Below are positions 16,716 to 54,015 of a DNA stretch of 64,000 nucleotides, piece by piece. Below the pieces are notes generated by a model, which saw only the letters and a program-made list of their open reading frames with translations, was not told where the DNA came from and did no database searches. The position numbers and the translations under genes were made by a program. Within the stretch, counting starts at the first letter, position 1, and the number at the start of each line of letters is the position of its first letter. The stretch is from NCBI GenBank assembly GCA_028293125.1, contig JAQGPJ010000041.1, positions 1 through 64,000 of the forward strand, in the 5' to 3' direction. The DNA is from Verrucomicrobiales bacterium. GTDB taxonomy: Bacteria > Verrucomicrobiota > Verrucomicrobiia > Verrucomicrobiales > V1-33.

Positions 16716-18056
16716 ATGAAATCATTCCGCCTTCTGCCTGTCCTGTGCCTGTTCCTGATCACCGCCGGCACCAAGCCAGCGCGGGCGGATCTGAAAAGCT
16801 GGCTGGACAGGCCGGAGCCGGACTACCAATGGGAGTTGACCGAAACCGTGCATATGCTGGGCTGTGATATTTTCCGGCTGAAGCTGGTTTCCCAAGTCTG
16901 GCAGGGTATGCAATGGAATCACGACTTGGTGGTGTTCGCTCCGAAGGACGCCGCCCCCACGGACCAGATCCTCCTGCTCAACGAGGGCGGCAGCGCCAAT
17001 CCGCGGGGCTATCCCTACGGCATGCTGCTGGCCGCCAAGATCAAAGCCCCCTGCGCCATGCTGCTGGGCATCCCCAACCAGCCGCTGTTTGACGGCAAAA
17101 AGGAGGATGCCCTGATTGCGGAGACTTTTGTGAAGTATCTGGAGACAGGTGATGAGTCCTGGCCCCTGCTCTTCCCCATGGTGAAAAGCGTGATCAAGTC
17201 CATGGACGCGCTGCAGGCCTTTTCGGAGAAGCACCTGAGCAAAAAGGTGGAGCGCTTCATCCTCACCGGCGGCTCCAAGCGCGGCTGGAACACTTATCTG
17301 GCCGCCGCCTCCGACCCGCGCGTCAGCGCCATCGCGCCCATGGTGTTCGACTCCCTGAACATGGCGCTGCAACTTCCCCACCAGAAGGAAATCTACGGCG
17401 GGTACAGCCGCATGATCGATGACTACACCTCCCGCGGCTTGGTGCCCATGCCGGACACCCCCGCCGCCAAAAGGCTTTGGAGCTGGGTGGATCCGTGGTT
17501 TTACCGCCAGCGCCTGACCATGCCCAAGCTGATTCTGGCCGGCACCAACGACCCCTTTTGGAACACCGACGCCCTGAATCTCTATTGGGACGGGCTTCCG
17601 GAAAACAAATGGATTGCCTACATCCCCAATGCCGGCCACAGCCTGAACGAGAAGTCCGTCAAAACCGGCCAAAGCGACCGCAACCGGGCCATCGACACCC
17701 TCTGTGCCTTTGTGCGCTGGCAGCTCACCGGCACACCCATGCCCACCCTGACGTGGCGGCACGACGATACTGCGGACGGCTGGTCACGCCTCACCGTGAC
17801 GGCTTCCCAAGCTCCCAAATCCGCCACGCTGTGGGCCGCCACTGCCACCTCACGCGATTTCCGCGAGTCCACTTGGCAACCTCAAACGCTGGAGATTCCC
17901 GCCGACGGCAAAATCACCGCCCTGGTGCCCAAGCCCGCCACCGGCGGCCAGGCGTTCTACATCGACTGCGGCTTCTCCATGGAGGAGCTCACCTCCCACT
18001 TCTGCACCCAGCTCCGGGTAGTTGCCCCCAGTGCAGCCGCCAGCAGCGCGAAGTGA
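16716..18056 (+). CDS. PhoPQ-activated pathogenicity-related protein (alpha/beta hydrolase fold)
   Basis: 446 residues from the ATG giving 'MKSFRLLPVLCLFLITAG', a signal peptide cut near 'ARA'. The mature protein has 'FRLKLVSQVWQGMQWNHDLVVFAP', 'LLNEGGSANPRGYPYG', 'MVKSVIKSMDALQAFSEKHL', the nucleophile elbow-like 'ILTGGSKRGWNTYLAAASDPRV', 'IAPMVFDSLNM' and 'LILAGTNDPFWNTDALNLYWDGLP'. These define the PhoPQ-activated PqaA family. The C-terminal 90 residues form a beta-rich domain. Function in environmental bacteria is unknown; a hydrolase in the periplasm is likely. It ends just before the accessory region. Confidence 0.87.
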   Translation: MKSFRLLPVLCLFLITAGTKPARADLKSWLDRPEPDYQWELTETVHMLGCDIFRLKLVSQVWQGMQWNHDLVVFAPKDAAPTDQILLLNEGGSANPRGYPYGMLLAAKIKAPCAMLLGIPNQPLFDGKKEDALIAETFVKYLETGDESWPLLFPMVKSVIKSMDALQAFSEKHLSKKVERFILTGGSKRGWNTYLAAASDPRVSAIAPMVFDSLNMALQLPHQKEIYGGYSRMIDDYTSRGLVPMPDTPAAKRLWSWVDPWFYRQRLTMPKLILAGTNDPFWNTDALNLYWDGLPENKWIAYIPNAGHSLNEKSVKTGQSDRNRAIDTLCAFVRWQLTGTPMPTLTWRHDDTADGWSRLTVTASQAPKSATLWAATATSRDFRESTWQPQTLEIPADGKITALVPKPATGGQAFYIDCGFSMEELTSHFCTQLRVVAPSAAASSAK

Positions 18057-18566
18057 CTCTTTCAGGAGTTATGCCATTGGCTGCGGGGTATTGTCAGTGG
18101 TGTGGCGGCTTTGCTGGCCATGGGTCCGCAGCCGGGCTGCGGCCATGCGGGCTTTGGCCGGATACAGCGATTCAGCAAAAGGTTCCCGCTTCACGAGGAT
18201 TTCCTCCATCCGCACCATAATGAAATGAGGCCTGTTTCCAAGAAATCATGGTCCGCCCGCAGAGCGAGGCGTTTTGCAAGAATGTCTGCATAATATACCG
18301 CAGGCTGCATGATTCCAACACAGACCCACCCGAATTTTGCCTTACTCCCCCCCGGCCCTGATTCTGCGATGTGTAGCCCGGTCGCGAACAGGAGGTCAGA
18401 CTCGGCGCTCCCTCATGCCTCTAAGTTGTAAATTGAGTATTTATATCGCTGGCCCTCGCGGGGCGCTTTTTGCACTCCGGGGGTTGGGCCTGCGGAATCG
18501 GCACCCACCCCCCATTCTAAAAAACATACTTCTTATGCAAACAATACCGCTACCGTTAACAGCTCC
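18057..18566. other. Gap of low coding signal at the left edge of the accessory region
   Basis: No convincing gene starts in these 510 bases. From about 18300 base composition falls and the style changes from the Verrucomicrobial flank. A plus-strand frame is open without stops from 18432 (just after a TAA) into the coding region of the next entry, but has no ATG or GTG before 18567. A G-rich/C-rich imperfect hairpin lies at about 18479-18513. Confidence 0.4.
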
Positions 18567-18953
18567 GTGGAATCCACCGAAAACGCGTTCCCGTGTGAGG
18601 CGGTGTCCGAATGGACTGATAAAGCAATGACGTCCCTTGGCAGCAACGCGGGCAGTGGATATTCCCTCATCACAGGAAGGTGGGTGCCAGTTGCTCGGAA
18701 AACGATGAACAAGGTGCAGGCTAAGGCATCTGACGCAATGCTTAAGAAACTGGCAATCACCACGCTTCCCCTCATCAAAACGCAGTTCCTGTTTTCGCCA
18801 ATCGCATACACAAACCAAAAACCAACTGCGAATATGAGACTGCAAGCCTTCGAAGCTCTCTTCCTTCACGGATTCAAAGACCTTTACAGCGCCAAAAATC
18901 ACTTCATCAAGGCGCTCACGAAGATGGTGAAAGCCGTGACGAGTCCAGAATAA
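18567..18953 (+). CDS. Hypothetical protein, foreign-looking
   Basis: 128 residues from a GTG start, no family recognised. The product is mixed charged and Ala/Lys-rich with phrases such as 'EWTDKAMTSLGSNAGSGYSLITGRW' and 'FKDLYSAKNHFIKALTKMVKAV', and has no signal peptide or membrane helix. The same frame stays open 45 codons upstream to 18432 and reads like protein there ('RWPSRGAF'), so the true start may be further 5' or the gene may be truncated. Base composition is clearly lower in GC than the flanking genes and resembles the operon that follows. The minus-strand frames across it also stay open, so coding strand is not certain. Confidence 0.4.
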   Translation: MESTENAFPCEAVSEWTDKAMTSLGSNAGSGYSLITGRWVPVARKTMNKVQAKASDAMLKKLAITTLPLIKTQFLFSPIAYTNQKPTANMRLQAFEALFLHGFKDLYSAKNHFIKALTKMVKAVTSPE

Positions 18954-19065
18954 GATCTGGGTTCGCCCATCATTCCGAACATACCCCTTTGGGCTCATTT
19001 TAGGAAATGCAATCCGTCGGAGTAGTTCTGCTGGAGGCCGGATCATATTCAACTGGAATTAAATT

Positions 19066-19794
19066 ATGTCAAAGCACACAGATCTATCCGGTAAGCGCAT
19101 TCTGTTGAGTGGCGGCACAACCGGCATCGGCAGGGAAACGCTTAAGCTGCTCGTGGGCAAGGGTGCGCGCGTGCTCACCTTCGGGCGCGATGCCCCCGCG
19201 CTTGAAGACGCACTCGCTTATGTTCCTGATGCAATCGGCCTCACCGCTGACGCTGCAACCAAGGATGGGATCAAGAAGATTTTCGCCGAAATGGATGCAA
19301 AACTGGGAGGCCTCGACATTCTTGTTGCATGTGCGGCGCTGGGTGCCCAGCCGATCCATGAAATGGCCGATAATGACTGGCGTTACGTGATCGAGACCAA
19401 TCTGGTCGGCTATCTTGCCTCCGCCCGCGAAGCGATCCTGCGCATGGAACCGCAGGGTGGCGGACATTTGCTATTCGTCGGATCGATCAGTACTGAAATC
19501 AAGGCCGAGGGTGAAAGCGTCTATTCGGCGACCAAGGCTGGCATTCAGGCGTTTGCCGAAACTCTTCGCAAGGAAGTTGCGGTAAAGAATATCAAAGTAA
19601 GCGTCGTCCAGCCCGGTTCGGTGGACACCGATATGCAGGAATTGACCGCAGAGCAGAAGCGCGAGGCCGTCGCCGCTCACGAAATGCTTCATGCCGAGGA
19701 GGTGGCCGAAGCAATTGAATTCATTCTGACGCGTTCGGAGCGAACCGATATCGTAAATCTGCGAATCGAGCCGCGGCTCCAGAAAACCAGCTGA
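19066..19794 (+). CDS. Short-chain dehydrogenase/reductase (first of two in the operon)
   Basis: 242 residues. Classical SDR: nucleotide loop 'SGGTTGIGRETLKLLVGKGARV' (TGxxxGxG variant GGTTGIG, about 15-36), 'LDILVACAALG' in place of NNAG, catalytic Ser in 'LLFVGSISTEIKAEG', and the catalytic Tyr and Lys in 'SVYSATKAG'. It oxidises or reduces a hydroxyl/keto group with NAD(P)H; the substrate is not evident, but the neighbours suggest a sugar or polyol. First gene of a four-gene run, with four bases between its stop and the next ATG. GC content and codon use differ from the flanking Verrucomicrobial genes and resemble Alphaproteobacteria. Confidence 0.88.
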   Translation: MSKHTDLSGKRILLSGGTTGIGRETLKLLVGKGARVLTFGRDAPALEDALAYVPDAIGLTADAATKDGIKKIFAEMDAKLGGLDILVACAALGAQPIHEMADNDWRYVIETNLVGYLASAREAILRMEPQGGGHLLFVGSISTEIKAEGESVYSATKAGIQAFAETLRKEVAVKNIKVSVVQPGSVDTDMQELTAEQKREAVAAHEMLHAEEVAEAIEFILTRSERTDIVNLRIEPRLQKTS

Positions 19795-19798
19795 GAAC

Positions 19799-20869
19799 AT
19801 GAAACAACAGCCACCCTTTTTGATGAAAGCCGCGGTGAAGACGGCCCGTGGCAGGTTTGAGATCACCGAAGTTGAGCGCCTTGGTATTCCCGATGCCGAC
19901 TGGGTGCTTGCGCGGGTGCGCGTCGCGGGGATTTGCGGCACTGACCTGCGGCACTGGGACAAACCTGAACCCGAGCTCGAACATCATATTGTGGGTCATG
20001 AACTGGCGGGGGAAGTCGTTGAAATCGGCTCAGCAGTCACCAATGTCGCTCCGGGAGACCGGGTCGTCATCGAAAGCGTCATGGGTGACGGCGAGTGTGA
20101 ATGGTGCCGCGTGCAGCAGTATAATCTCTGCCCCAATCTATACGAGGTCAGGACCAAATGCGTGTCGCGCGCTTACGGCGAGTTTGTCACCGGTCCCGCC
20201 AGTAAGTTCTACAAGTTGCCGGAGCATATCAGTTTCGAAGAGGCCGCCCTGATCGACACTTTTTCGGTGTGCGTCCACGCACAACACAAGTCGGGGCTTT
20301 CCATCAACAACAAGGTCGCGATTATAGGGGCGGGGCCAATTGGCCTTGGACAATTAATGCTCGCCAAGGCAAGCGGCGCCGATGTGCTGATCACCGACGT
20401 CGTGGACAGCGCGTTGGCGAAGGAGCTGGGCGCGGATGTGGTTCTCAACACGGGCCGTGACGACCCCGCGGCAGCGGCGATGGCCTTCACCGGAGGCCGT
20501 GGCGTTGACATCGTCTTTGAATGCTCGGGCGGCAGGAGTATGCCAGTCACGCTGCCTCAGGCCACACAAATGGCGCGGCGTGGAGGCAAGGTGGTTATCG
20601 TCGGCGGATTCGATAAAGGGGTGACCACAATCGGACTGGAATGGCAGCGGATTCAGATGTCCGAAATACAGATTATTCCAAGTGCCAGCTTCTCATTTTA
20701 TGGACTTGACGCCGAACAGGGCATAGCGCTGGAACTGCTTTCGAAAGGCAAGCTGAACGCCAGCAAACTGATTACGCACCGCTTCACCCTGGATCAGATC
20801 AATGATGCATTCGAAGCCGGTGCGGCAAAGGAGAAAACAGCGGCTACCTTTATCGCAATCTCAATCTGA
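19799..20869 (+). CDS. Zinc-dependent alcohol (polyol/sugar) dehydrogenase
   Basis: 356 residues of the MDR family. Catalytic zinc ligands are visible in 'AGICGTDLRHWD' (Cys) and 'HHIVGHELAGEV' (His-Glu). A structural zinc loop is present with at least three cysteines ('GECEWCRVQQYNLCPN'). The Rossmann loop is 'VAIIGAGPIGLGQLMLAKASGA'. Closest in pattern to sorbitol/L-threonine-type dehydrogenases acting on vicinal hydroxyls. The first ATG gives MKQQPPFL; an internal ATG eight codons on (MKAAVK) is the more usual family N-terminus. Its stop codon overlaps the lactonase start by one base (TGATG), so the genes are translationally coupled. Confidence 0.9.
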   Translation: MKQQPPFLMKAAVKTARGRFEITEVERLGIPDADWVLARVRVAGICGTDLRHWDKPEPELEHHIVGHELAGEVVEIGSAVTNVAPGDRVVIESVMGDGECEWCRVQQYNLCPNLYEVRTKCVSRAYGEFVTGPASKFYKLPEHISFEEAALIDTFSVCVHAQHKSGLSINNKVAIIGAGPIGLGQLMLAKASGADVLITDVVDSALAKELGADVVLNTGRDDPAAAAMAFTGGRGVDIVFECSGGRSMPVTLPQATQMARRGGKVVIVGGFDKGVTTIGLEWQRIQMSEIQIIPSASFSFYGLDAEQGIALELLSKGKLNASKLITHRFTLDQINDAFEAGAAKEKTAATFIAISI

Positions 20870-21921
20870 TGAGTGATAGCCTCAGCGAATTGCACCTGTA
20901 TGTAGGCACTTATGCCGATGCTGGCGGTAAAGGCATTTACCCGCTTGGCCGCGAAGATGGAAAATGGGTAGCTGGCGACGCGTACAGGAGCGCACCAAAT
21001 GCTTCATTCGGAGTTTGGTCCAAGCGTCATGGCTTGTTTTATCTGGTCGACGAAAGAGCAGGAAAAATCGGGGTTTACCGTTGTGATCAAGGCAAATGGA
21101 GGCTGTTGGCCAGCACCTCAACGGAAGGTGATCAGCCGTGCCATCTTGCATTAAATCCGGATGAATGGTGGTTGGCTGCAGCTAATTACGGCTCAGGGAG
21201 TATCGCTCTGTTTCCTTTAGGTTCCGACGGTGGGTTGCTCAGCGAACCGACGATTCGGCAGAATGACGGCAGCAGCAAGGTCAAGGAACGGCAGGAAGGT
21301 CCGCACGCGCATTGTGTCGTTTTCAGTCCTGACGGGCACTGGCTTTACCAGACAGACCTCGGCACCGACGAAATTCTGGCCTTCGGGTTTGACAACGACC
21401 GAGGCCTGACCGGAGAACGCATATTGGCCTATAAGGCCGCGCCCGGCTCGGGGCCCCGACACCTGATATTTCATCCGCAAAAGCCGCTCGCGGTTCTGAT
21501 CAGCGAACTGGCGAGCACCCTGACGCTGTTCGAGGTGAAGCCGGACAGACTATCCATGCTGCAATTGATATCCACGTTACCTCCTGGTGCCACCACCGAA
21601 AATCTTGGTGGCCATGTCATGATCAATGCGGCTGGCGACCGGCTTTACGCAACAAATCGGGGCCATGACAGCATTGCCACCTTCGCCATTGGCGATGCCG
21701 GGCAATTGTCGTTCCTGCGTGACACACCTTCCGGCGGGGCGTCGCCCCGCTTTTTCCTCCTGCTCGAAGAACAGCGACTGATGGTTGTCGCGAACGAGGA
21801 GGGCAACATCGTCACATTCTTTGATGTTGGGCCGGACGGCCTGCTGACTCAATCGGGTGGAATCGCCATTCCGGCACCGGCTTTTATTTTCCAAACCCAC
21901 AAAAGCACCACATATGACTGA
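20869..21921 (+). CDS. Lactonase family protein (6-phosphogluconolactonase-like beta-propeller)
   Basis: 350 residues with the seven-bladed propeller pattern of the YbhE/Pgl family: 'LHLYVGTYADAGGKGIY' at the start, 'GDQPCHLALNPDEWWLAAANYGSGSIALFPL', 'GPHAHCVVFSPDGHWLYQTDLGTDEI', 'GSGPRHLIFHPQKPLAVLISELASTLTLF', 'LYATNRGHDSIATF' and 'GASPRFFLL'. No signal peptide, so cytoplasmic. It would open a sugar lactone made by one of the neighbouring dehydrogenases. It overlaps the upstream gene by one base and the downstream SDR by eight, showing a single translational unit. Its composition is among the least GC-rich in the window. Confidence 0.88.
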   Translation: MSDSLSELHLYVGTYADAGGKGIYPLGREDGKWVAGDAYRSAPNASFGVWSKRHGLFYLVDERAGKIGVYRCDQGKWRLLASTSTEGDQPCHLALNPDEWWLAAANYGSGSIALFPLGSDGGLLSEPTIRQNDGSSKVKERQEGPHAHCVVFSPDGHWLYQTDLGTDEILAFGFDNDRGLTGERILAYKAAPGSGPRHLIFHPQKPLAVLISELASTLTLFEVKPDRLSMLQLISTLPPGATTENLGGHVMINAAGDRLYATNRGHDSIATFAIGDAGQLSFLRDTPSGGASPRFFLLLEEQRLMVVANEEGNIVTFFDVGPDGLLTQSGGIAIPAPAFIFQTHKSTTYD

Positions 21922-22648
21922 CCTACATGGCAAAAGGGTATTGATTACCGGCGGGGCAGGCGGCGTCGGCAGCGCAGTCGCCCAGCGGATGGTCGCGGCT
22001 CGCGCCAAAGTGCTTCTCGCCGATCGGGACGAGCTCGAGCTGCGCCAAGCTGTTGCAAAGCTCGCACCGTCACGCGATATTGAAGCTGTCACTGCTGATC
22101 TATCGAGCGCCAGCGGGCTCAAACGGATGTTTGACCGGGTGGATGCATGGCTCGGTGGCCTCGATATCCTTGTCGCCTGCGCAGGCGTAGGCTCCGGACC
22201 ATTGCTTGAAATGGATGATGCCGCTTGGCGCTATGTGATCGAAAGCAACCTCGTCAGCTATGTTGCCTGCACCAAGGGGGCAATCGACCGGATCAAAGCG
22301 GGCGGCACAAACGACGGCATGATCATCCTGGTCGGATCGATCAGCGTTCATATCAAGGCGGTTGGCGAAAGCGTTTACAATGCCTCCAAAGGCGGCGTCG
22401 CGTCATTCGCCGAAACGCTTCGCAAGGAGCTTATCCCGGAAAGCATCCGGGTCACGCTCATCGAGCCAGGAGCGATCGGATCGGCGCTGCAGCCTTATTC
22501 GGCCGAGCAACGGGCGGCTGAAATTGAAGCCTACAAGATGCTGCCAGCTGGCGAAGTCGCTGAAGCAATTCTATTCGCCGCCACCCGGCCACCCGGTGTG
22601 GATGTGGTGACGCTTCGGATCGAACCGCTCGTGCAGAAAATTTATTAA
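21914..22648 (+). CDS. Short-chain dehydrogenase/reductase (second of two in the operon)
   Basis: 244 residues from the ATG giving 'MTDLHGKRVLITGGAGGVGSAV'; the longer frame to 21857 lies wholly inside the lactonase gene. SDR hallmarks are GGAGGVG, 'LDILVACAGVG', 'LVGSISVHIKAVGESVYNASKGG' with catalytic Ser, Tyr and Lys, and 'IEPGAIGSALQ'. It is paralogous to the SDR at 19066 ('GSIS--IKA-GESVY-A-K-G' and 'FAETLRKE' in both), so the operon carries two diverged copies, perhaps for two successive oxidations or for two epimers. It overlaps the lactonase by eight bases. IS debris begins just after its stop. Confidence 0.88.
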   Translation: MTDLHGKRVLITGGAGGVGSAVAQRMVAARAKVLLADRDELELRQAVAKLAPSRDIEAVTADLSSASGLKRMFDRVDAWLGGLDILVACAGVGSGPLLEMDDAAWRYVIESNLVSYVACTKGAIDRIKAGGTNDGMIILVGSISVHIKAVGESVYNASKGGVASFAETLRKELIPESIRVTLIEPGAIGSALQPYSAEQRAAEIEAYKMLPAGEVAEAILFAATRPPGVDVVTLRIEPLVQKIY

Positions 22649-22715
22649 TGCAACAGACCGCCACATGCTTCAATAGGGGGAGACCACACAAAGGGAAAAA
22701 AGTGCACGCTAACGC

Positions 22716-22895
22716 AAGCCTTTGACGAATGACCGTCCCGCAAGGCGGTGAGGCGGCTGCGGTGTGCCATGGGGGGGCGTAACGCAATCAAAAGCACAGG
22801 AACGGAGCATGGCACTGCTGCGCAAGTTTGAAATCAGTGGACTTTCGCTGGCGGAGTTCTGCCGTAAGCCTTTGACGCGTGACCGTTCGTCAAGG
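22716..22895. repeat. Pair of 30-bp direct repeats in IS debris
   Basis: Copies at 22716-22745 and 22866-22895 share 25 of 30 bases, with conserved parts AAGCCTTTGACG, TGACCGT and CAAGG. The copies start 150 bases apart and lie either side of the TnpA-like fragment. They sit between the foreign operon and hom and look like scars of insertion or recombination. Confidence 0.6.
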
Positions 22896-22955
22896 CTTGA
22901 CAGCAGCCTGCCTGCCGCTGCCGGGGCCTGCACTTTGTCTGTGGCGGCGGCGTAG
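22764..22955 (+). pseudogene. Fragment resembling IS66-type accessory transposase OrfA/TnpA N-terminus
   Basis: The frame around 22785-22868 reads 'QSKAQERSMALLRKFEISG', then 'LSLAEFCRK', matching the N-terminal pattern of IS66 OrfA proteins (a short helix, then 'SGLS-A-FCR'). After FCRK the similarity stops at the second direct repeat (22866), so the rest of the gene is gone. The remaining gap 22649-23013 has no other gene. On the minus strand a short Ala-rich frame is open but unconvincing. Evidence is one motif only. Confidence 0.4.
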
Positions 22956-23013
22956 GCTTCGAGTGTCAGGGTCTGAGCCGTTCCGCTGGCAGCGGCGGAC
23001 AGTTTGGAGAGGA

Positions 23014-23047
23014 CACGCCTGAATTATTCAGATAAATTACCAAAACC
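23014..23047 (+). repeat. Inverted repeat, left copy (flanks hom)
   Basis: 34 bases beginning CACGCCTGAATTATTCAGAT and ending AAATTACCAAAACC. The reverse complement of 24483-24516 matches it at 32 of 34 positions. The right copy contains the stop codon of the decayed IS701-like transposase, so both are probably ends of the same type of IS, facing each other across hom. This copy lies 7 bases beyond the hom stop codon. Confidence 0.75.
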
Positions 23048-23054
23048 GAAGTAA

Positions 23055-24377
23055 TCAGGCACCGCGGCCTTTAAGCGATTCCACACGCAGCAGGACAGGG
23101 GTGGTCTGCACGCATTCCAAAGCGGCGATTTCCGCGACGGCTTTTTTCATGGTGCCATAGGTGGCTTGGTGGAGCATGAGCATCAGATCGGCATCCGCGC
23201 TCGGATCCACCTCCGGTTGCTGGAGGGACAGGATGCCAATGCCATGGCCGGCGATGATTTTGGAGATGGAGGCGATCACGCCCGGGCGGTCGTCCACCCG
23301 CAGCCGGAGGTAATAACGGCTGACGGTCTGGTCCACCGGCAGGCAGGAGCCGTAGTGGCCTTGGGGGATGAAGCCGTTGTTGGTGCCGGCCTCGTTTGCC
23401 AAGTTGTCCACGGCGTCCGCAAGGTCGCTGATCACGGAGCTGCTGGTGGCATTCTGGCCGGCGCCACTTCCGTAAAAAAGAGTCTCGCCCACAATGTCGC
23501 CGTAAACGGCCACGGCATTCATGACGCCGTGCACATTGGCCAGGATATGGGATTGCGGTACGAGGCAGGGCTGCACACGGACCTCGATGCGGTTGGAGTC
23601 GTCCAGCCGGATCACGCCCAACAGCTTCACCACATAGCCCATGCTGCGGGCGAATCTGAGATCGGTCTGGGTGATTTCCGTGACGCCCTCCACATGCACC
23701 TGCTCCGGCCGCAGCCATGCGCCGTAACTCAGCCAAGCCAGCACGATGGCTTTGTGGCCGGCGTCCCAGCCATTGACATCCAGCGTGGGGTCTGCCTCCG
23801 CATAACCCAGCACCTGGGCCTCGCCGAGAGCATCGTCATAGCTCAGACCGGCCTCGCTCATGCGGGTGAGAATGTAGTTCGTGGTACCGTTGATGATGCC
23901 GTAGATGGCCTTGATGTGGTTGCCGATCAGAGCCTCCCGCACGGCCTTGATGATGGGGATGCCCCCGGCCACGGCGGCCTCAAAATACAACGGCACATCC
24001 TCACGCTCCGCCAAGGCCACTAATTCATGGCCGTGCTCCGCCAGCAGCGCCTTGTTGCCGGTGACCACCGTCTTGCGGGCCAGAATCGCCGTTTTGACGA
24101 GGTGATAAGCCTCGGTGACACCGCCGATCAGCTCCACGATGACGGGAATCTCCGGGTCGTTCACCAGATCGCGCCAGTCCGTGGTCAGCATGCCCTCCGG
24201 CACCTGCAGCTCCGTATGCTTCTCGGGTGTCCGCACGGCGATGCGGCGCACTTGGATGCGCACTCCCGTGCGGTCGGTGAGCAGATTCCCGTTTTTCAAA
24301 AGATTCTTGTACACACCCGCCCCCACGTTTCCCAGCCCGGCCAGGCCCACAAACACAGTCTTCGGTTCACTCGTCAT
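23055..24377 (-). CDS. hom: Homoserine dehydrogenase with ACT domain
   Basis: 440 residues from the ATG giving 'MTSEPKTVFVGLAGLGNVGAGV'. The Rossmann domain 'GLAGLGNVGAGVYKNL' (NAD(P)H) is followed by 'VVTGNKALLAEHGHEL', 'YFEAAVAGGIPIIKAVREALIGNHIKAIYGIINGTTNYILTRM' and 'AQVLGYAEADPTLDVNGWDAGHKAIVLAWLSYG', which contains the catalytic and substrate-binding residues. A C-terminal ACT domain ('YYLRLRVDDRPGVIASISKIIAGHGIGI') provides threonine feedback control. The enzyme reduces aspartate semialdehyde to homoserine for Thr/Met synthesis. It is a single-gene unit lying exactly between two inverted IS-end-like repeats, unusual for a core gene. Confidence 0.95.
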   Translation of the reverse strand: MTSEPKTVFVGLAGLGNVGAGVYKNLLKNGNLLTDRTGVRIQVRRIAVRTPEKHTELQVPEGMLTTDWRDLVNDPEIPVIVELIGGVTEAYHLVKTAILARKTVVTGNKALLAEHGHELVALAEREDVPLYFEAAVAGGIPIIKAVREALIGNHIKAIYGIINGTTNYILTRMSEAGLSYDDALGEAQVLGYAEADPTLDVNGWDAGHKAIVLAWLSYGAWLRPEQVHVEGVTEITQTDLRFARSMGYVVKLLGVIRLDDSNRIEVRVQPCLVPQSHILANVHGVMNAVAVYGDIVGETLFYGSGAGQNATSSSVISDLADAVDNLANEAGTNNGFIPQGHYGSCLPVDQTVSRYYLRLRVDDRPGVIASISKIIAGHGIGILSLQQPEVDPSADADLMLMLHQATYGTMKKAVAEIAALECVQTTPVLLRVESLKGRGA

Positions 24378-37595: not shown

Positions 37596-39023
37596 ATGAG
37601 CAAAAGTGACTTTGGACTGATCGGACTGGCCGTCATGGGCCAGAACCTGGTGCTGAACGTGGAAAGCCGCGGCTTCCAAGTCAGCGTGTACAACCGCACC
37701 ACCGCCGTGACTGATCAGTTCATCGCCGACAATCCGGAAAAGAAGCTGGTCGGCTGCCGCACGCTGGAGGATTTTGTCGAAAGCCTGTCCACGCCCCGCA
37801 AGATCCAGATCATGGTGAAGGCCGGTGCGGCCGTGGACGCCGTGATCGACTCCCTGGTCCCTCTGTTGAACAAGGGTGACATCATCATCGACGGCGGCAA
37901 CAGCCTCTACACTGACACCGAGCGCCGCGACGCCGACCTCAGCGAGATGGGTCTGCGCTTCATCGGCGCGGGCGTCTCCGGCGGTGAGGAGGGCGCGCTC
38001 AAGGGCCCGTCCATCATGCCCGGCGGCCCGCTCAGCACCTGGGAGGTGATGAAGCCCATTTTTGAAAGCATCTCCGCCAAGGTGAACGGCGAGCCCTGTG
38101 TCACCCACATCGGCCCCGGCGGCGCCGGCCACTATGTGAAGATGGTGCACAACGGCATCGAGTACGGCGACATGCAGCTCATCTGCGAGGCCTACAACAT
38201 CTTCAAGGCCGCCGGCTTCACCACCGACGAGATGGCCAAGGTCTTCACCGACTGGAACGACGGCGACCTGGAGTCCTACCTGATCCAGATCACCTCCAAA
38301 ATCTTCGCTGAGAAAGATGACGAAACCGGCCAGCCTATCGTGGACCTGATCGTGGACAAGGCCGGCCAGAAAGGCACCGGCCAATGGACCCTTCAAAACG
38401 CCGTGGAGAACGCCATCGTCATCTCCACCATCAACGCCGCCGTGGAGGCCCGCATCCTCAGCAGCCAGCGCAAACAGCGCCTCGCCGCAAGCAAGGAGCT
38501 CCATGGCCCGGAGGCCGCCATCAGCCTCGATAAGCAGGCGCTGGTGGACAAGGTGCATGACGCTCTTTTCGCCTCCAAAATCATCTCCTACGCCCAAGGG
38601 CTCGACCTTATCAAAACCATGGGCGAGAAGAAAAGCTGGGGTCTTGATCTCGGCAAAATCGCCGCCATCTGGCGCGGGGGCTGCATCATCCGCGCCAAGT
38701 TCCTCAACCGCATCACCGACGCCTACCGCGGCAATCCCGGGCTGACCAACCTGATGCTGGATCCCTTCTTCAAGGACCTGCTCAACAAATTCCAGCAGAA
38801 CTGGCGCGAGGTGGTGGCCATCGCCGTCACCAACGGCATTCCCGTCCCGGCCTTCAGCGCCTCCCTCGGCTACTACGACAGCTACCGCGCCGCCCGTCTG
38901 CCCGCCAACCTGCTTCAAGCCCAGCGCGATTTCTTCGGCGCCCACACCTACGAGCGCCTCGACAAGCCGGAGGGCAAGCCCTTCCACACCGAGTGGCCCG
39001 ACGTCGTCGAGGACGACGCCTGA
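37596..39023 (+). CDS. gnd: 6-phosphogluconate dehydrogenase, decarboxylating
   Basis: 475 residues from the ATG giving 'MSKSDFGLIGLAVMGQNLVLNVESRG'. Full-length family match: NADP loop GLAVMG, 'GDIIIDGGNSLYTDTERRDADL', 'GVSGGEEGALKGPSIMPGG', 'HIGPGGAGHYVKMVHNGIEYGDMQLICEAY' (catalytic Lys) and 'GTGQWTLQNAVENAI', with the C-terminal tail 'YERLDKPEGKPFHTEWPD'. It oxidises 6-phosphogluconate to ribulose 5-phosphate, the substrate of KdsD encoded at 9091. Divergent from moaE with 85 bases between, and followed by a strong terminator. Confidence 0.97.
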   Translation: MSKSDFGLIGLAVMGQNLVLNVESRGFQVSVYNRTTAVTDQFIADNPEKKLVGCRTLEDFVESLSTPRKIQIMVKAGAAVDAVIDSLVPLLNKGDIIIDGGNSLYTDTERRDADLSEMGLRFIGAGVSGGEEGALKGPSIMPGGPLSTWEVMKPIFESISAKVNGEPCVTHIGPGGAGHYVKMVHNGIEYGDMQLICEAYNIFKAAGFTTDEMAKVFTDWNDGDLESYLIQITSKIFAEKDDETGQPIVDLIVDKAGQKGTGQWTLQNAVENAIVISTINAAVEARILSSQRKQRLAASKELHGPEAAISLDKQALVDKVHDALFASKIISYAQGLDLIKTMGEKKSWGLDLGKIAAIWRGGCIIRAKFLNRITDAYRGNPGLTNLMLDPFFKDLLNKFQQNWREVVAIAVTNGIPVPAFSASLGYYDSYRAARLPANLLQAQRDFFGAHTYERLDKPEGKPFHTEWPDVVEDDA

Positions 39024-39093
39024 TCCGCTTCAGCGCCTTCACCAGCATTGGACTGGAAAGCGCATCCGGCTCAAAGATCATTCTTTTATTTCA

Positions 39094-39124
39094 AACCGGC
39101 TCTTTCATGGAGCCGGTTTTTTTT
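39094..39124 (+). terminator. Intrinsic terminator of gnd
   Basis: Perfect 9-bp stem AACCGGCTC / GAGCCGGTT, 7-base loop, then an unbroken T run to 39124. It may also act weakly for the convergent fic gene. Confidence 0.9.
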
Positions 39125-39166
39125 GCATCGGAATCCTTCCATGAAGTCCGGCAAATACCGGCAACC

Positions 39167-40228
39167 TCACAGGTCAGCTTCCCGTGTGTAGAAAACACCA
39201 CGGCCTTTTCCGTGGCGTGCAATCAATCCGGAATCCACCATCTCCGACATTTTCACTTTCAGAGTATTCCGGTTGGCTCCGGTGGCCGTGACGGCCTCGG
39301 AAAGTGTCACCTGCTGCCCGTCATCGAACAGGCGGAGCAGCGAGGCGATCAGCGGTGATCCGGATTCCAACCGCTTTTGCTCCAGCTGGATTTTCCGGTT
39401 CAGATTGTCCTTCTGACGCCCCAGGCAGCGCAGGAAAAACAGGAGCCATGGCTCCCAGTCCACGGAATCCGACCGCATGGCCGATTGGGTCTTTCTGAGT
39501 GCCCGGTAGTAAAACTCCTTGTTCTCCTCAATCACCGATTCCAGTGAGGAGTACGGCACATAGCTGTAACCGTGCCTGAGCAGCAGCAGGGTTGTCAGCA
39601 CACGGGAAAGCCGGCCATTGCCGTCCTGAAACGGATGGATGGCGAGGAACCAGACGACAAAAACGCCTGTGATCAGCAAAGGATGCAGAACCTGGTCGCG
39701 TTCCGCCTCCATCATCCAGTCGATCAGGCGCCTCATGGCCAGTGGTGTCTCAAACGGGGAGGCAGTCTCAAACACGATGCCCAGCTGCACACCGTCCGCG
39801 TCGAAAGCCGCCACATGGTTGTCCAGCGCTTTATAGTCTCCGCGGTGCCGGGCATCCTTGCCGGAATACTGGAGCAGGGTCCGATGAAGCTGCCGGATAT
39901 GGTTTTCCGTCACCGGAATGTGCTCGAAGGATTCAAAAACCACGTCCATTGCCGTCGCATATCCGGCAACCTCCTCCTCATCGCGGTTTTTGAATTCCTG
40001 GATGCTGATTCCCGCAAGAAGGGTGGCCACCTGCTGGTCGGTGAGCCGGCTGCCCTCAATGCGTGTGGACGATCCAATGCTTTCGATAGTGGCGATTTTC
40101 CGGAGTTGGGACAGCTGGTCGCGGGACAGCCGCCGGAATATCCTCCACTGCCCTCTGAAATCATCCAAAGAGGCGATCAGCTTCAGCATTTCCGGGGTGA
40201 TGCCGGGTTTTGGGACAAGATTCAGCAT
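39167..40228 (-). CDS. Fic family protein (class II, self-inhibited AMPylase type)
   Basis: 353 residues. An N-terminal inhibitory helix carries 'SSTRIEG' (S54-x3-E58-G59, the (S/T)xxxE(G/N) motif), which blocks ATP binding in class II Fic proteins. The catalytic motif HPFQDGNGRLSR starts at His198 and is complete. 'HRTLLQYSGKDARHRGDYKALDNHV' is the Fic flap region. A C-terminal winged helix ('QVTLSEAVTATGANRNTLKVKMSEMVDSGLI') suggests it can bind DNA and perhaps its own promoter. Expected activity is transfer of AMP to a target hydroxyl. No separate antitoxin gene is next to it, consistent with internal inhibition. Convergent with gnd. Confidence 0.92.
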   Translation of the reverse strand: MLNLVPKPGITPEMLKLIASLDDFRGQWRIFRRLSRDQLSQLRKIATIESIGSSTRIEGSRLTDQQVATLLAGISIQEFKNRDEEEVAGYATAMDVVFESFEHIPVTENHIRQLHRTLLQYSGKDARHRGDYKALDNHVAAFDADGVQLGIVFETASPFETPLAMRRLIDWMMEAERDQVLHPLLITGVFVVWFLAIHPFQDGNGRLSRVLTTLLLLRHGYSYVPYSSLESVIEENKEFYYRALRKTQSAMRSDSVDWEPWLLFFLRCLGRQKDNLNRKIQLEQKRLESGSPLIASLLRLFDDGQQVTLSEAVTATGANRNTLKVKMSEMVDSGLIARHGKGRGVFYTREADL

Positions 40229-40230
40229 GG

Positions 40231-40278
40231 GATATCCATTAAATATCCAATTATATCCATTTTCTATCCCATTATCAA
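40231..40278 (-). promoter_or_regulatory. fic promoter with helically phased TGGATA repeats
   Basis: Read on the minus strand: TTGATA (40278-40273), a 17-base spacer and TATAAT (40255-40250), a near-ideal sigma-70 promoter, with the ATG at 40228 about 21 bases after the -10. Four direct repeats TGGATA/GGGATA start at steps of 11, 10 and 11 bases and overlap the spacer, the -10 and the leader. The phasing on one face of the helix suggests an operator, plausibly for the Fic protein's own winged helix. Confidence 0.65.
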
Positions 40279-40721
40279 GCCGTCCAGTTCCCGGTTTCTG
40301 GCCATCCGGAAGCCCGCTGCGCCTTAAAACGGCAAAAACATTCCTTGAAATTTTTAAGATTCGGCGGACAGTGATGGCCTTCCAACAAGGAGGCCCCTAT
40401 GTTCACCGCACAAATATCCCCATTGGCATCAACGCTGTCTGAAAGCAGCGCTGGCCGGGGTTGTGCGGTTTGATGAGGGATCGGTAAACAGGAAAGCAGA
40501 AACAGATTTCCACGCGGGAGGAGGACCCCCGCCTGTTTTCCACCTCATCCGGCGGCACGCATTCAGGTCAGCGCGCACTCCGGCAAAACCGGGCACGATC
40601 GTGCCATGCCCGGAGGATGGACTTCCGCCCCTCTGACAAAACAGGGTGCGGCGGTCCGCTGAGATTCCATTTTGCCCCATCCAGGCTGAGCCGTGGACGG
40701 GGCACCCTTGTTTGACCTGAC
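40279..40721. other. Gap between fic and the RbfA-like gene; nothing recognised
   Basis: About 440 bases. Open frames here (for example minus 40743-40429) lack codon bias, conserved motifs or a plausible start. No tRNA-like fold, strong terminator or repeat seen. It presumably holds the promoter of the RbfA-like gene. Confidence 0.5.
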
Positions 40722-41159
40722 TTGAAAACACAACGCAAAGCATCCGTGAAGGAAATGAAACCCCTGTGCGCCGAACCGCACCCCGGGGACGGAATTCCCT
40801 CTCACATTCTCAAAAAACAACAGCAGCAGCTGGAACGCCCGACCGGGTCCTCCGGTGGGCGGGCCAATGCCCGGCACCAGCAATACTGCAAGGCCGTGCA
40901 GCGCTCCCTGGAGGGCGGCCTGGCCTCCGCCTGCGGGGACGAGCGGTTGAAGGATCTGATCATTCAATCCGTGGAGCCCATGCGCAGCGGTGCGCATCTG
41001 CTGGTCGTGGTGGCGGTGCCCGAGGTGGACCACAGCGCGATAGGCGCGCTGGAGCAGTCCCTTCAGAAAGCCGCCGGCCTGCTGCGCTCCGTGATCGCCA
41101 CGGAGATCCAGCGGAAACGCACCCCGCACCTGACCTTCAGAGTGGTGCCTGAAACCTGA
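40722..41159 (+). CDS. RbfA-like ribosome maturation factor
   Basis: 145 residues. Residues about 50-142 follow the RbfA (KH-type) pattern: 'QQYCKAVQRSLEGGLASACGDERLKDLIIQSVEPMRSGAHLLVVVAVPEV', then 'ALEQSLQKAAGLLRSVIATEIQRKRTPHLTFRVVPE', where 'AAGLLR--IA--I--KRTP-L-F' is the RbfA signature. The N-terminal 35 residues are Gln/Pro-rich and not part of the family; an internal ATG at 40755 may be the true start. RbfA normally sits by nusA-infB-truB; here it precedes an RtcB-type ligase gene, so it may be a specialised copy. RbfA aids 16S rRNA 5'-end processing on the 30S subunit. Confidence 0.65.
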   Translation: MKTQRKASVKEMKPLCAEPHPGDGIPSHILKKQQQQLERPTGSSGGRANARHQQYCKAVQRSLEGGLASACGDERLKDLIIQSVEPMRSGAHLLVVVAVPEVDHSAIGALEQSLQKAAGLLRSVIATEIQRKRTPHLTFRVVPET

Positions 41160-52384: not shown

Positions 52385-53035
52385 CTACTTCCGGGTTTTG
52401 ACCGGCTTTGCGCGCTTGGGGAAAAGCTCCCGGCACAGCCGGCAGACCGTGCCGTCGCAGCCACGGGCGGTGCAATGCGCCCGCCCGTAAAAGATGATTT
52501 GAAGGTGCAGCTTGTTCCACCGTTCCCGGGGGAAGAGCTTTTTGAGATCCGCCTCCGTCCGCTCCACGGACCGTCCATCGGTCAGCTCCCAGCGCTGGGC
52601 CAGCCGATGGATATGGGTGTCCACGGGAAACGCCGGAAAGCCGAACGCCTGGGACATCACCACTGATGCCGTTTTGTGCCCCACCCCCGGCAGAGCCTCC
52701 AGTGCCTCAAAACTTTGAGGAACCTTGCCGCCGTGCTGGTCCAGCAGAATCCGGGACAATTCGGAAATGGCCTTGGCCTTGCGGGGGGACAGCCCGCAGG
52801 GGCGGATGATGGCCTGAATCTCCTCCACCGGCACCCTCACCATGTTCTCCGGAGTGTCCGCCCGGCCAAACAGCAGCGGGGTCACCGTGTTGACGCGGGC
52901 ATCCGTGCACTGGGCGGACAGCAGCACAGCGATAAGCAGGGTGTAGGGATCGCGGTGATCCAGTGGGATGGGAGTCTCCGGGTAGAGTTCCTCCAACACC
53001 TCGGAAATTCTGGCCGCTCGCCGGGTGCGGGTCAT
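52385..53035 (-). CDS. nth: Endonuclease III (DNA glycosylase/AP lyase)
   Basis: 216 residues from the ATG giving 'MTRTRRAARISEVLEELYP'; an upstream ATG at 53080 adds 15 residues. Helix-hairpin-helix 'LEALPGVGHKTASVVMSQAFG' with the catalytic Lys, and 'FPVDTHIHRLAQRWELTDG' with the catalytic Asp. It removes oxidised pyrimidines. The C-terminal Fe-S loop has four cysteines spaced C-x4-C-x4-C-x2-C ('HCTARGCDGTVCRLC') rather than the E. coli C-x6-C-x2-C-x5-C. Convergent with the DUF1501 gene. Confidence 0.93.
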   Translation of the reverse strand: MTRTRRAARISEVLEELYPETPIPLDHRDPYTLLIAVLLSAQCTDARVNTVTPLLFGRADTPENMVRVPVEEIQAIIRPCGLSPRKAKAISELSRILLDQHGGKVPQSFEALEALPGVGHKTASVVMSQAFGFPAFPVDTHIHRLAQRWELTDGRSVERTEADLKKLFPRERWNKLHLQIIFYGRAHCTARGCDGTVCRLCRELFPKRAKPVKTRK

Positions 53036-53145
53036 GCAGGGAAAGAGAGAATCGTAAACGGCGGCATTTCCTTGTGCCAATCTCCAGTGCCCCGGCTGGG
53101 GAAACAGCGATTTCCGGAAATTTCACTCACTGACTCCTCCTCTCC

Positions 53146-53206
53146 AAAAACGGCAGGGCGTCCTATCCTCCAGTCTCTGTAAAGACTGGAAAAAGAACGC
53201 CCTGCC
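53146..53206 (-). terminator. Two-tier terminator hairpin of the 3D-domain gene
   Basis: Outer 10-bp stem GGCAGGGCGT / ACGCCCTGCC at 53152-53161 and 53197-53206, with an inner hairpin CCAGTCT / AGACTGG. On the minus strand it is followed by GTTTTTGG. Lies 50 bases beyond the stop at 53256. Confidence 0.75.
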
Positions 53207-53255
53207 AGTGCTTTTGAAAATTCAGACTGAGGGACAAATTCGGTGCGGCTCTGGA

Positions 53256-53792
53256 TCAGCCGCGGAGATTGCGCCTGATGCTTTCCACCATGGTCCGGAC
53301 GTGGGGATAGGAGACGCGGTCACCCAGAATGGCCAGGCTGTCGCCGTAGGAGCCCCATTTGATCACCTTGATGCGCACATTGCGCGCGCCCCATTCACTG
53401 ATGCCGGCCATGTCCGGCTTGTAGAGATCAATGGTCTTGGTGCCGACCAGCGCGCTGCCGTAGTCGTCAATGCGGTAGGTGTAGGGCAGACCCTCGATTT
53501 TGAACACAGTGCCCAGAGGGAACACGGACCAGTCGGACGCCGCACTGCGGAACATGCCATACTGGAGATTGCCGCCTTCGGCACTGGCACGCCCGTATTT
53601 CAGGCTGTCAGCCTCAACGTGGCTGTAGGCGGTGGTGCGGACTTTGTAATATTTGGCGTTGTCGATTTGAGAACGCCCACTGCCGGTTTTGTGGACCTTG
53701 GCATCAGCCAGGCTGGTGGTGGAGGAGCAACTGCAGAAGCAGGCACTGGAGGCGGCGGCAAGAAGGGCGGTCAGAAGCGGTCGGCAGGCCAT
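53256..53792 (-). CDS. 3D-domain lipoprotein (double-psi barrel, cell-wall type)
   Basis: 178 residues. A lipoprotein signal has several Cys near 'SSACFCSC', so the lipid-attached Cys is one of these. The 3D domain (about 45-160) shows 'VRTTAYSHVEADS', 'FPLGTVFKIEGLPYTYRIDDYGSALVGTKTIDLYKPDMAGISEWGARNVRIKVIKWG', containing the three Asp residues (Y-IDD-G, K-IDLY) that name the family. Such domains occur in lytic transglycosylases such as MltA and in resuscitation-promoting factors, so it probably binds or cleaves peptidoglycan in the envelope. Confidence 0.85.
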   Translation of the reverse strand: MACRPLLTALLAAASSACFCSCSSTTSLADAKVHKTGSGRSQIDNAKYYKVRTTAYSHVEADSLKYGRASAEGGNLQYGMFRSAASDWSVFPLGTVFKIEGLPYTYRIDDYGSALVGTKTIDLYKPDMAGISEWGARNVRIKVIKWGSYGDSLAILGDRVSYPHVRTMVESIRRNLRG

Positions 53793-54015
53793 AAATTCGG
53801 AAGTGGCGGGTTAATTCGCAGGAAAACAAGATCCTCCGGAATGTTGAACTTCAGGCTCCTTTGACATTCAGGAGCCGGAAACGTTGAGCACCGGCGAAGC
53901 GATTAAAGCAGCCGGCGGGCCGTGTTTAAACTTTTTTGAAATGGCAGGCAAGAGATTTATACCCTTCATTTCTCTTAATTTCCATAAAAACCTCAAATTT
54001 TCAGATTCACGCCAC

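Follow-up and report, generated by a model that had tools for sequence, protein, structure and literature searches.

How does a compact set of dehydrogenase and lactonase genes come to stand in a Verrucomicrobial chromosome, and what could it do there? The set, here called the cassette, lies in the first 64,000 nucleotides of contig JAQGPJ010000041.1 from a Verrucomicrobiales bacterium (GCA_028293125.1), a stretch referred to as the window. It consists of four complete open frames on the + strand at 19066–22648: SDR1, a short-chain dehydrogenase/reductase (SDR) of 242 residues (19066–19794), a zinc-dependent medium-chain dehydrogenase (MDR) of the sorbitol/threonine dehydrogenase type with 356 residues (19799–20869), a seven-bladed β-propeller lactonase of 350 residues (20869–21921) and SDR2 with 244 residues (21914–22648). 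We consider it likely that the cassette arrived by horizontal transfer, that it is the 3′ part of a sphingomonad stress operon whose enzymes oxidize a sugar or polyol and open a lactone, and that it has lost the first gene of that operon, F1, together with the promoter. SDR1 and the dehydrogenase are 4 bases apart, the dehydrogenase overlaps the lactonase by 1 base (TGATG), and the lactonase overlaps SDR2 by 8 bases. Homologues of the dehydrogenase align from about residue 9 (MKAAVKTARG...), eight residues after the annotated start, so the true start is perhaps at 19823, which would widen the gap to SDR1 to 28 bases. The initial annotation, which described four packed genes on one strand with this gap and these overlaps, is exact in its coordinates and agrees with the Pfam assignments. 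Its span of 18430–22650 holds for the four genes and not for the start, which lies 636 bases before the first of them; those 636 bases hold a weak yciF-like fragment and the tail of F1.

The cassette has a sphingomonad origin. In a phylum-wide sample of 338 Verrucomicrobiota genomes the dehydrogenase is found (E ≤ 1e-60) in a single one, the cassette's own, and the best match among 57 genomes of the host's order is 37% identical. Relatives with roughly 55–87% identity occur at 42 loci in a collection of named genomes, mostly in Sphingomonas and other Sphingomonadales, with an additional group in Bacteroidota. Sphingomonas sp. JC676 has SDR1, dehydrogenase, lactonase and SDR2 in identical order (71, 87, 57 and 86% identity, respectively), as does Sphingomonas bacterium RYN_529 (70, 71, 52 and 75%), and SDR1 is 65–77% identical to the SDR at the equivalent place in sphingomonad operons. 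In the dehydrogenase tree the cassette copy is sister to JC676 within Sphingomonadales with a support of 99, and its grouping with Bacteroidota is rejected (approximately unbiased (AU) test, p 0.009). In the SDR2 tree it falls in a sphingomonad clade of four genomes with a support of 100. By these sequence comparisons the dehydrogenase is absent from the relatives of the host, and the dehydrogenase and SDR2 nest among donor sequences, as expected of DNA acquired horizontally from Sphingomonadales. The initial annotation had called the cassette foreign to the chromosome, and the refuting test set in advance left this claim standing, given the phylum-wide count and the placement in the trees. 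It had also expected an alphaproteobacterial, sphingomonad-like source, which the protein search and neighbourhood comparison confirm by finding the JC676 and RYN_529 operons. The idea of a detached module without a described neighborhood is not supported, since the identical order exists in sphingomonads behind the fifth gene F1. No relevant publication on the gene set came up in literature searches.

Base composition agrees with the lower GC content relative to the flanks that had been seen by eye. The cassette genes have a GC of 0.557–0.590 and a GC3 (GC at third codon positions) of 0.60–0.66, compared to a GC3 of 0.74–0.82 in the four flanking host genes measured. In 1-kb steps the GC is 0.54–0.59 across the cassette and mostly 0.60–0.68 elsewhere, with about 0.63 for the whole window. 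Further lower-GC stretches within the window lie at 53001–54000 and 39001–41000 (0.556–0.578). The dehydrogenase and SDR2 show a low dN of 0.08–0.09 against a near-saturated dS, and this low dN may reflect selection in either the host or the donor. The dehydrogenase is present at a comparable level in four of 150 genomes of the family of JC676, and is thus an accessory gene there too. In the dehydrogenase tree the copies from two records labelled Arthrobacter sp. TPD3018 and Microvirga sp. SRT01 fall inside Sphingomonas, which may be due either to wrong record names or to transfer of the copies. Plasmid unnamed3 of Spirosoma oryzicola (locus L012, 7740–10053) carries an SDR, an SPW-repeat gene and the dehydrogenase (67–68% identity) without the lactonase, so the core SDR–dehydrogenase pair is plasmid-borne in Bacteroidota.

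The sphingomonad operons have the order F1-SDR1-dehydrogenase-lactonase-SDR2, where F1 is an unannotated gene of about 740 codons that is present at 26 loci and usually lies immediately upstream of SDR1. The cassette matches this order, with the tail of F1 in the right place and frame and its body missing. A reading frame closing 3 bases upstream of SDR1 (19027–19062, + strand) reads SAGGRIIFNWN-stop and in a tail alignment matches the ends of F1 genes, for example PANGRIVLTWE-stop. In a six-frame translation of 2.57 million codons, a signature built on the tail gives 23 matches, 22 of which are F1 ends, and the remaining one is the site in the cassette. Because the signature is otherwise confined to F1 ends, we take 19027–19062 to be a remnant of F1, its last 11 codons and stop, with the left break shortly before it. 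An F1 profile search of the window gave no detection, the short tail being below its limit, and tblastn of F1 gave noise. The host has an F1 homologue of its own with 33% identity on another contig (C53; L078:8769–11000). That stretch also has YciF/DUF892-like genes and a large CheB/CheR-PAS histidine kinase, and is a second stress-gene neighborhood for F1.

F1 belongs to no Pfam family and has no sequence relative in the PDB. An AlphaFold2 model built with 21 homologues has a pLDDT of 91, and in it residues ~268–666 match the (α/α) toroids of GH76 mannanases and cellobiose 2-epimerases with Z scores of 22–27. The modeled fold suggests that F1 is a sugar-active enzyme and does not name its reaction. 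Residues D369, W371, H375, H408 and D437 of F1 are invariant. The β domains of F1 were barely tested in this fold comparison, which excludes no other known fold for them.

The donor operons carry a putative stress-type promoter. In 10 of the 26 loci the sequence GGAAC-N16-18-GTT lies no more than 110 nt upstream of F1, typically 54–68 nt from the start, compared to 6 of 412 neighboring genes not assigned to a shared family (Fisher p 5e-10). With one close species group collapsed, the enrichment has a p of 6e-7. This sequence agrees with the EcfG site of Sphingomonas melonis Fr1, GGAAC-N17-20-GTT (PMC6599016), and with that of Sphingopyxis, GGAAC-N16-CGTT (PMC7083833), and can thus be read as an EcfG general-stress promoter. 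Most likely, therefore, the general-stress sigma factor EcfG reads the sphingomonad F1 operon. Genes for YciF, MFS, patatin and metallo-β-lactamase-fold proteins recur near the operon loci. In the window, one relaxed GGAA match at 19003 is at about chance level and was rejected as a promoter.

What the four enzymes may do can be narrowed by family. SDR1 and SDR2 are paralogues with 48% identity (PF00106, E 8e-44 and 2e-43). In translation SDR1 has the motifs SGGTTGIG, GSIS and YSATK, with S instead of the first T of TGxxxGxG, and SDR2 has TGGAGGVG, GSIS and YNASK. TGxxxGxG, S-Y-xxx-K and PF00106 place both among the predicted classical SDRs. The residues after β-2, GR in SDR1 and DR in SDR2, suggest NADP and NAD, respectively, as cofactors. 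The dehydrogenase carries the Pfam domains ADH_N (PF08240) and ADH_zinc_N (PF00107) and the catalytic motifs GICGTD and GHE, and the two domains together with the zinc ligands identify a putative zinc MDR. In its structural-zinc region (20061–20180) the first Cys is replaced by Asp (GDGECEWC...C), and some relatives retain the Cys (GCGHCEWC). The closest solved structure is human sorbitol dehydrogenase 1pl6 (E 9e-47). The best NCBIfam families, tdh and scyllo-inosose 3-dehydrogenase IolM, are sub-threshold with 158–165 bits against cut-offs of 458 and 450. The lactonase (PF10282, 6-phosphogluconolactonase-like, E 6e-77) is closest to structures 3fgb and 3scy and misses both NCBIfam 6-phosphogluconolactonase cut-offs, with 130 of 500 and 86 of 370 bits. 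NCBIfam equivalogs gave an exact name to none of the five proteins submitted.

Taken together, these features suggest the following history. An operon comprising the promoter, F1, SDR1, dehydrogenase, lactonase and SDR2 would have entered a Verrucomicrobial chromosome by horizontal transfer, with a left break inside or just before F1 that spared its last 11 codons. The substrate would be a small sugar or polyol that F1 releases or rearranges. The two SDRs and the sorbitol-dehydrogenase-like enzyme would oxidize its hydroxyls with NAD(P), and the lactonase would open the resulting lactone to the acid. In the present host, without F1 and the alphaproteobacterial promoter, the cassette would be either expressed from another promoter or silent. 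A conversion of a polyol or sugar to a lactone and then to an acid, as initially put forward, is plausible. The JC676 operon is followed downstream of SDR2 by a GH130 phosphorylase, an FGGY kinase and a mannitol dehydrogenase, which is consistent with sugar or polyol chemistry. No sugar-acid dehydratase, aldolase or kinase of the Entner–Doudoroff or Weimberg type was found in the cassette, a test that covered the JC676 neighbor families in part. A bolder and rather speculative extension is that F1 represents a new family of carbohydrate-active (α/α)-toroid enzymes, and that F1-SDR-dehydrogenase(-lactonase-SDR) is an undescribed stress-induced route for sugars or polyols, spread across Alphaproteobacteria and Bacteroidota and truncated in Verrucomicrobiota, where it would work without F1 or on the host's distant homologue.

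The cassette is bounded on the right by a multi-copy host repeat or transposon debris at 22710–22915, identified by its genome copies and with no strand assigned. About 20 partial copies lie elsewhere in the host genome, several of them at contig ends, and a 34-base direct repeat (22713–22746 and 22863–22896) has its units 150 bases apart. This suggests an active or recent mobile element, and the insertion sequence debris that the initial annotation saw directly after the cassette is right in substance. The left junction has no known repeat, and a 98-base match elsewhere is weak. On this side a truncated yciF-like open frame of 128 codons (18567–18950, + strand) resembles, in its last ~33 codons, the N-terminus of YciF/DUF892 ferritin-like stress proteins, with a Pfam DUF892 E value of 2e-4 that is below the gathering score. 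Across ~35 residues it shares 36–43% identity with YciF genes that lie close to the cassettes of sphingomonads and Flavobacterium, and plasmid YciF hits have an E value of 3e-3; the fragment could be either host or donor DNA. A PhoPQ-related gene and a homoserine dehydrogenase gene flank the cassette region. Relatives also have the homoserine dehydrogenase gene (86% identity in the genus), but its neighbors there differ from those in the window, and an empty site can therefore not be read.

Several observations count against a simple transfer of an active sphingomonad operon. In its tree the cassette SDR1 lies among sphingomonads and away from the JC676 SDR1, a pairing that is not formally rejected (AU p 0.09). 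The lactonase tree is poorly resolved, with JC676 closest to the cassette copy at only 57% identity, and neither the lactonase nor SDR2 is present in every sphingomonad operon. The history of the operon is thus sphingomonad but mosaic, in view of the separate SDR1 and the distant lactonase. The sampled sphingomonad loci have a GC of 0.62–0.67 (0.63–0.67 for the JC676 genes), and the cassette, at 0.56–0.59, is below all of them; the low GC thus probably marks a donor lineage that has yet to be sampled and not sphingomonads in general. The strict EcfG motif is absent at 17500–23500 of the window, and EcfG is reported to be exclusive to Alphaproteobacteria (PMC3892343), so the cassette may be silent in its present host. 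No sigma-70-like site was found on the + strand, and the total count of such sites is not above that in shuffled sequences. Finally, the multi-copy repeat makes a misassembly possible at the right junction.

That last point bears on whether the cassette belongs to this chromosome at all. In a chimeric assembly, a piece of a co-sampled sphingomonad contig would have been joined to a Verrucomicrobial one, and the genome is indeed in 120 contigs, the composition shifts with the cassette and the right side crosses a repeat whose copies end other contigs. The left junction, however, is outside known repeats, the contamination estimate is 0.7%, and both F1 and the yciF-like frame are cut short where the pieces meet, which is what an old insertion would show. 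In addition, the closest known sphingomonad is 87% identical and neither side runs on into sphingomonad DNA, and we regard a chimera as quite improbable. A native Verrucomicrobial operon of atypical composition could draw on the host's own F1 homologue, but this reading is refuted by the single occurrence among the 338 genomes of the phylum and by trees that place the cassette in sphingomonads, and we give it next to no credence.

Accepting horizontal transfer, the genes might still be decaying passengers, neither transcribed nor selected in the host. The loss of the promoter and first gene, the lack of a strict EcfG motif and of a + strand sigma-70-like site and the unlike composition all fit this, and we hold it to be a serious possibility, though short of an even chance. 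On the other side, all four frames are uninterrupted across 3.5 kb, unlike the F1 and yciF-like sequences next to them. Open frames cannot tell passengers from maintained genes, since a recent arrival would look alike. The operon might instead serve detoxification, with the lactonase and dehydrogenases acting on reactive aldehydes, quinones or lactones of oxidative stress; the stress-type promoter, the YciF neighbors and the broad substrate range of SDR and zinc dehydrogenase families would accord with such a role. This is a fair rival but rather unlikely, in view of the sugar-enzyme fold of F1, the proximity of the dehydrogenase to polyol dehydrogenases and the phosphorylase, sugar kinase and mannitol dehydrogenase genes that follow SDR2 in JC676. 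We therefore favor the acquired part of a sphingomonad sugar or polyol operon, a well-supported cross-phylum transfer of metabolic genes whose readable scar is the last codons of the lost F1. The transfer itself is an event of an ordinary kind, and the uncharacterized stress operon is of more interest. The cassette draws attention to an operon that recurs in sphingomonads without annotation and has a stress-type promoter. This operon includes a protein of ~740 residues with a sugar-enzyme fold and no Pfam family and is genetically testable in culturable Sphingomonas strains.

Compared to known systems, the cassette is nearest to the JC676 and RYN_529 operons, which have a full F1 upstream, an EcfG motif, a GC of 0.64–0.65 and other flanks, none of which the cassette shares. 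The EcfG-dependent genes of S. melonis Fr1 include glycosidases, malto-oligosyltrehalose enzymes and a "Zn-dependent alcohol dehydrogenase" (#2499) (PMC6599016); #2499, which has no good motif of its own, would be a candidate orthologue of the cassette dehydrogenase. F1 has the predicted toroid fold of GH76 α-mannanases, whose catalytic residues are an Asp pair, and of AGE and cellobiose 2-epimerases, with a His pair in AGE, in a comparison at the level of the fold, but it differs from them by an identity of about 10% and by extra N- and C-terminal β domains. The dehydrogenase resembles the sorbitol/L-threonine dehydrogenase branch of zinc MDRs in its domains and best structures (1pl6, 5vm2 and 2d8a), although it is only ~35% identical. 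The lactonase matches PF10282 over its whole length, as do the 6-phosphogluconolactonase-type lactonases 3scy, PpgL (6igb) and YbhE (1ri6).

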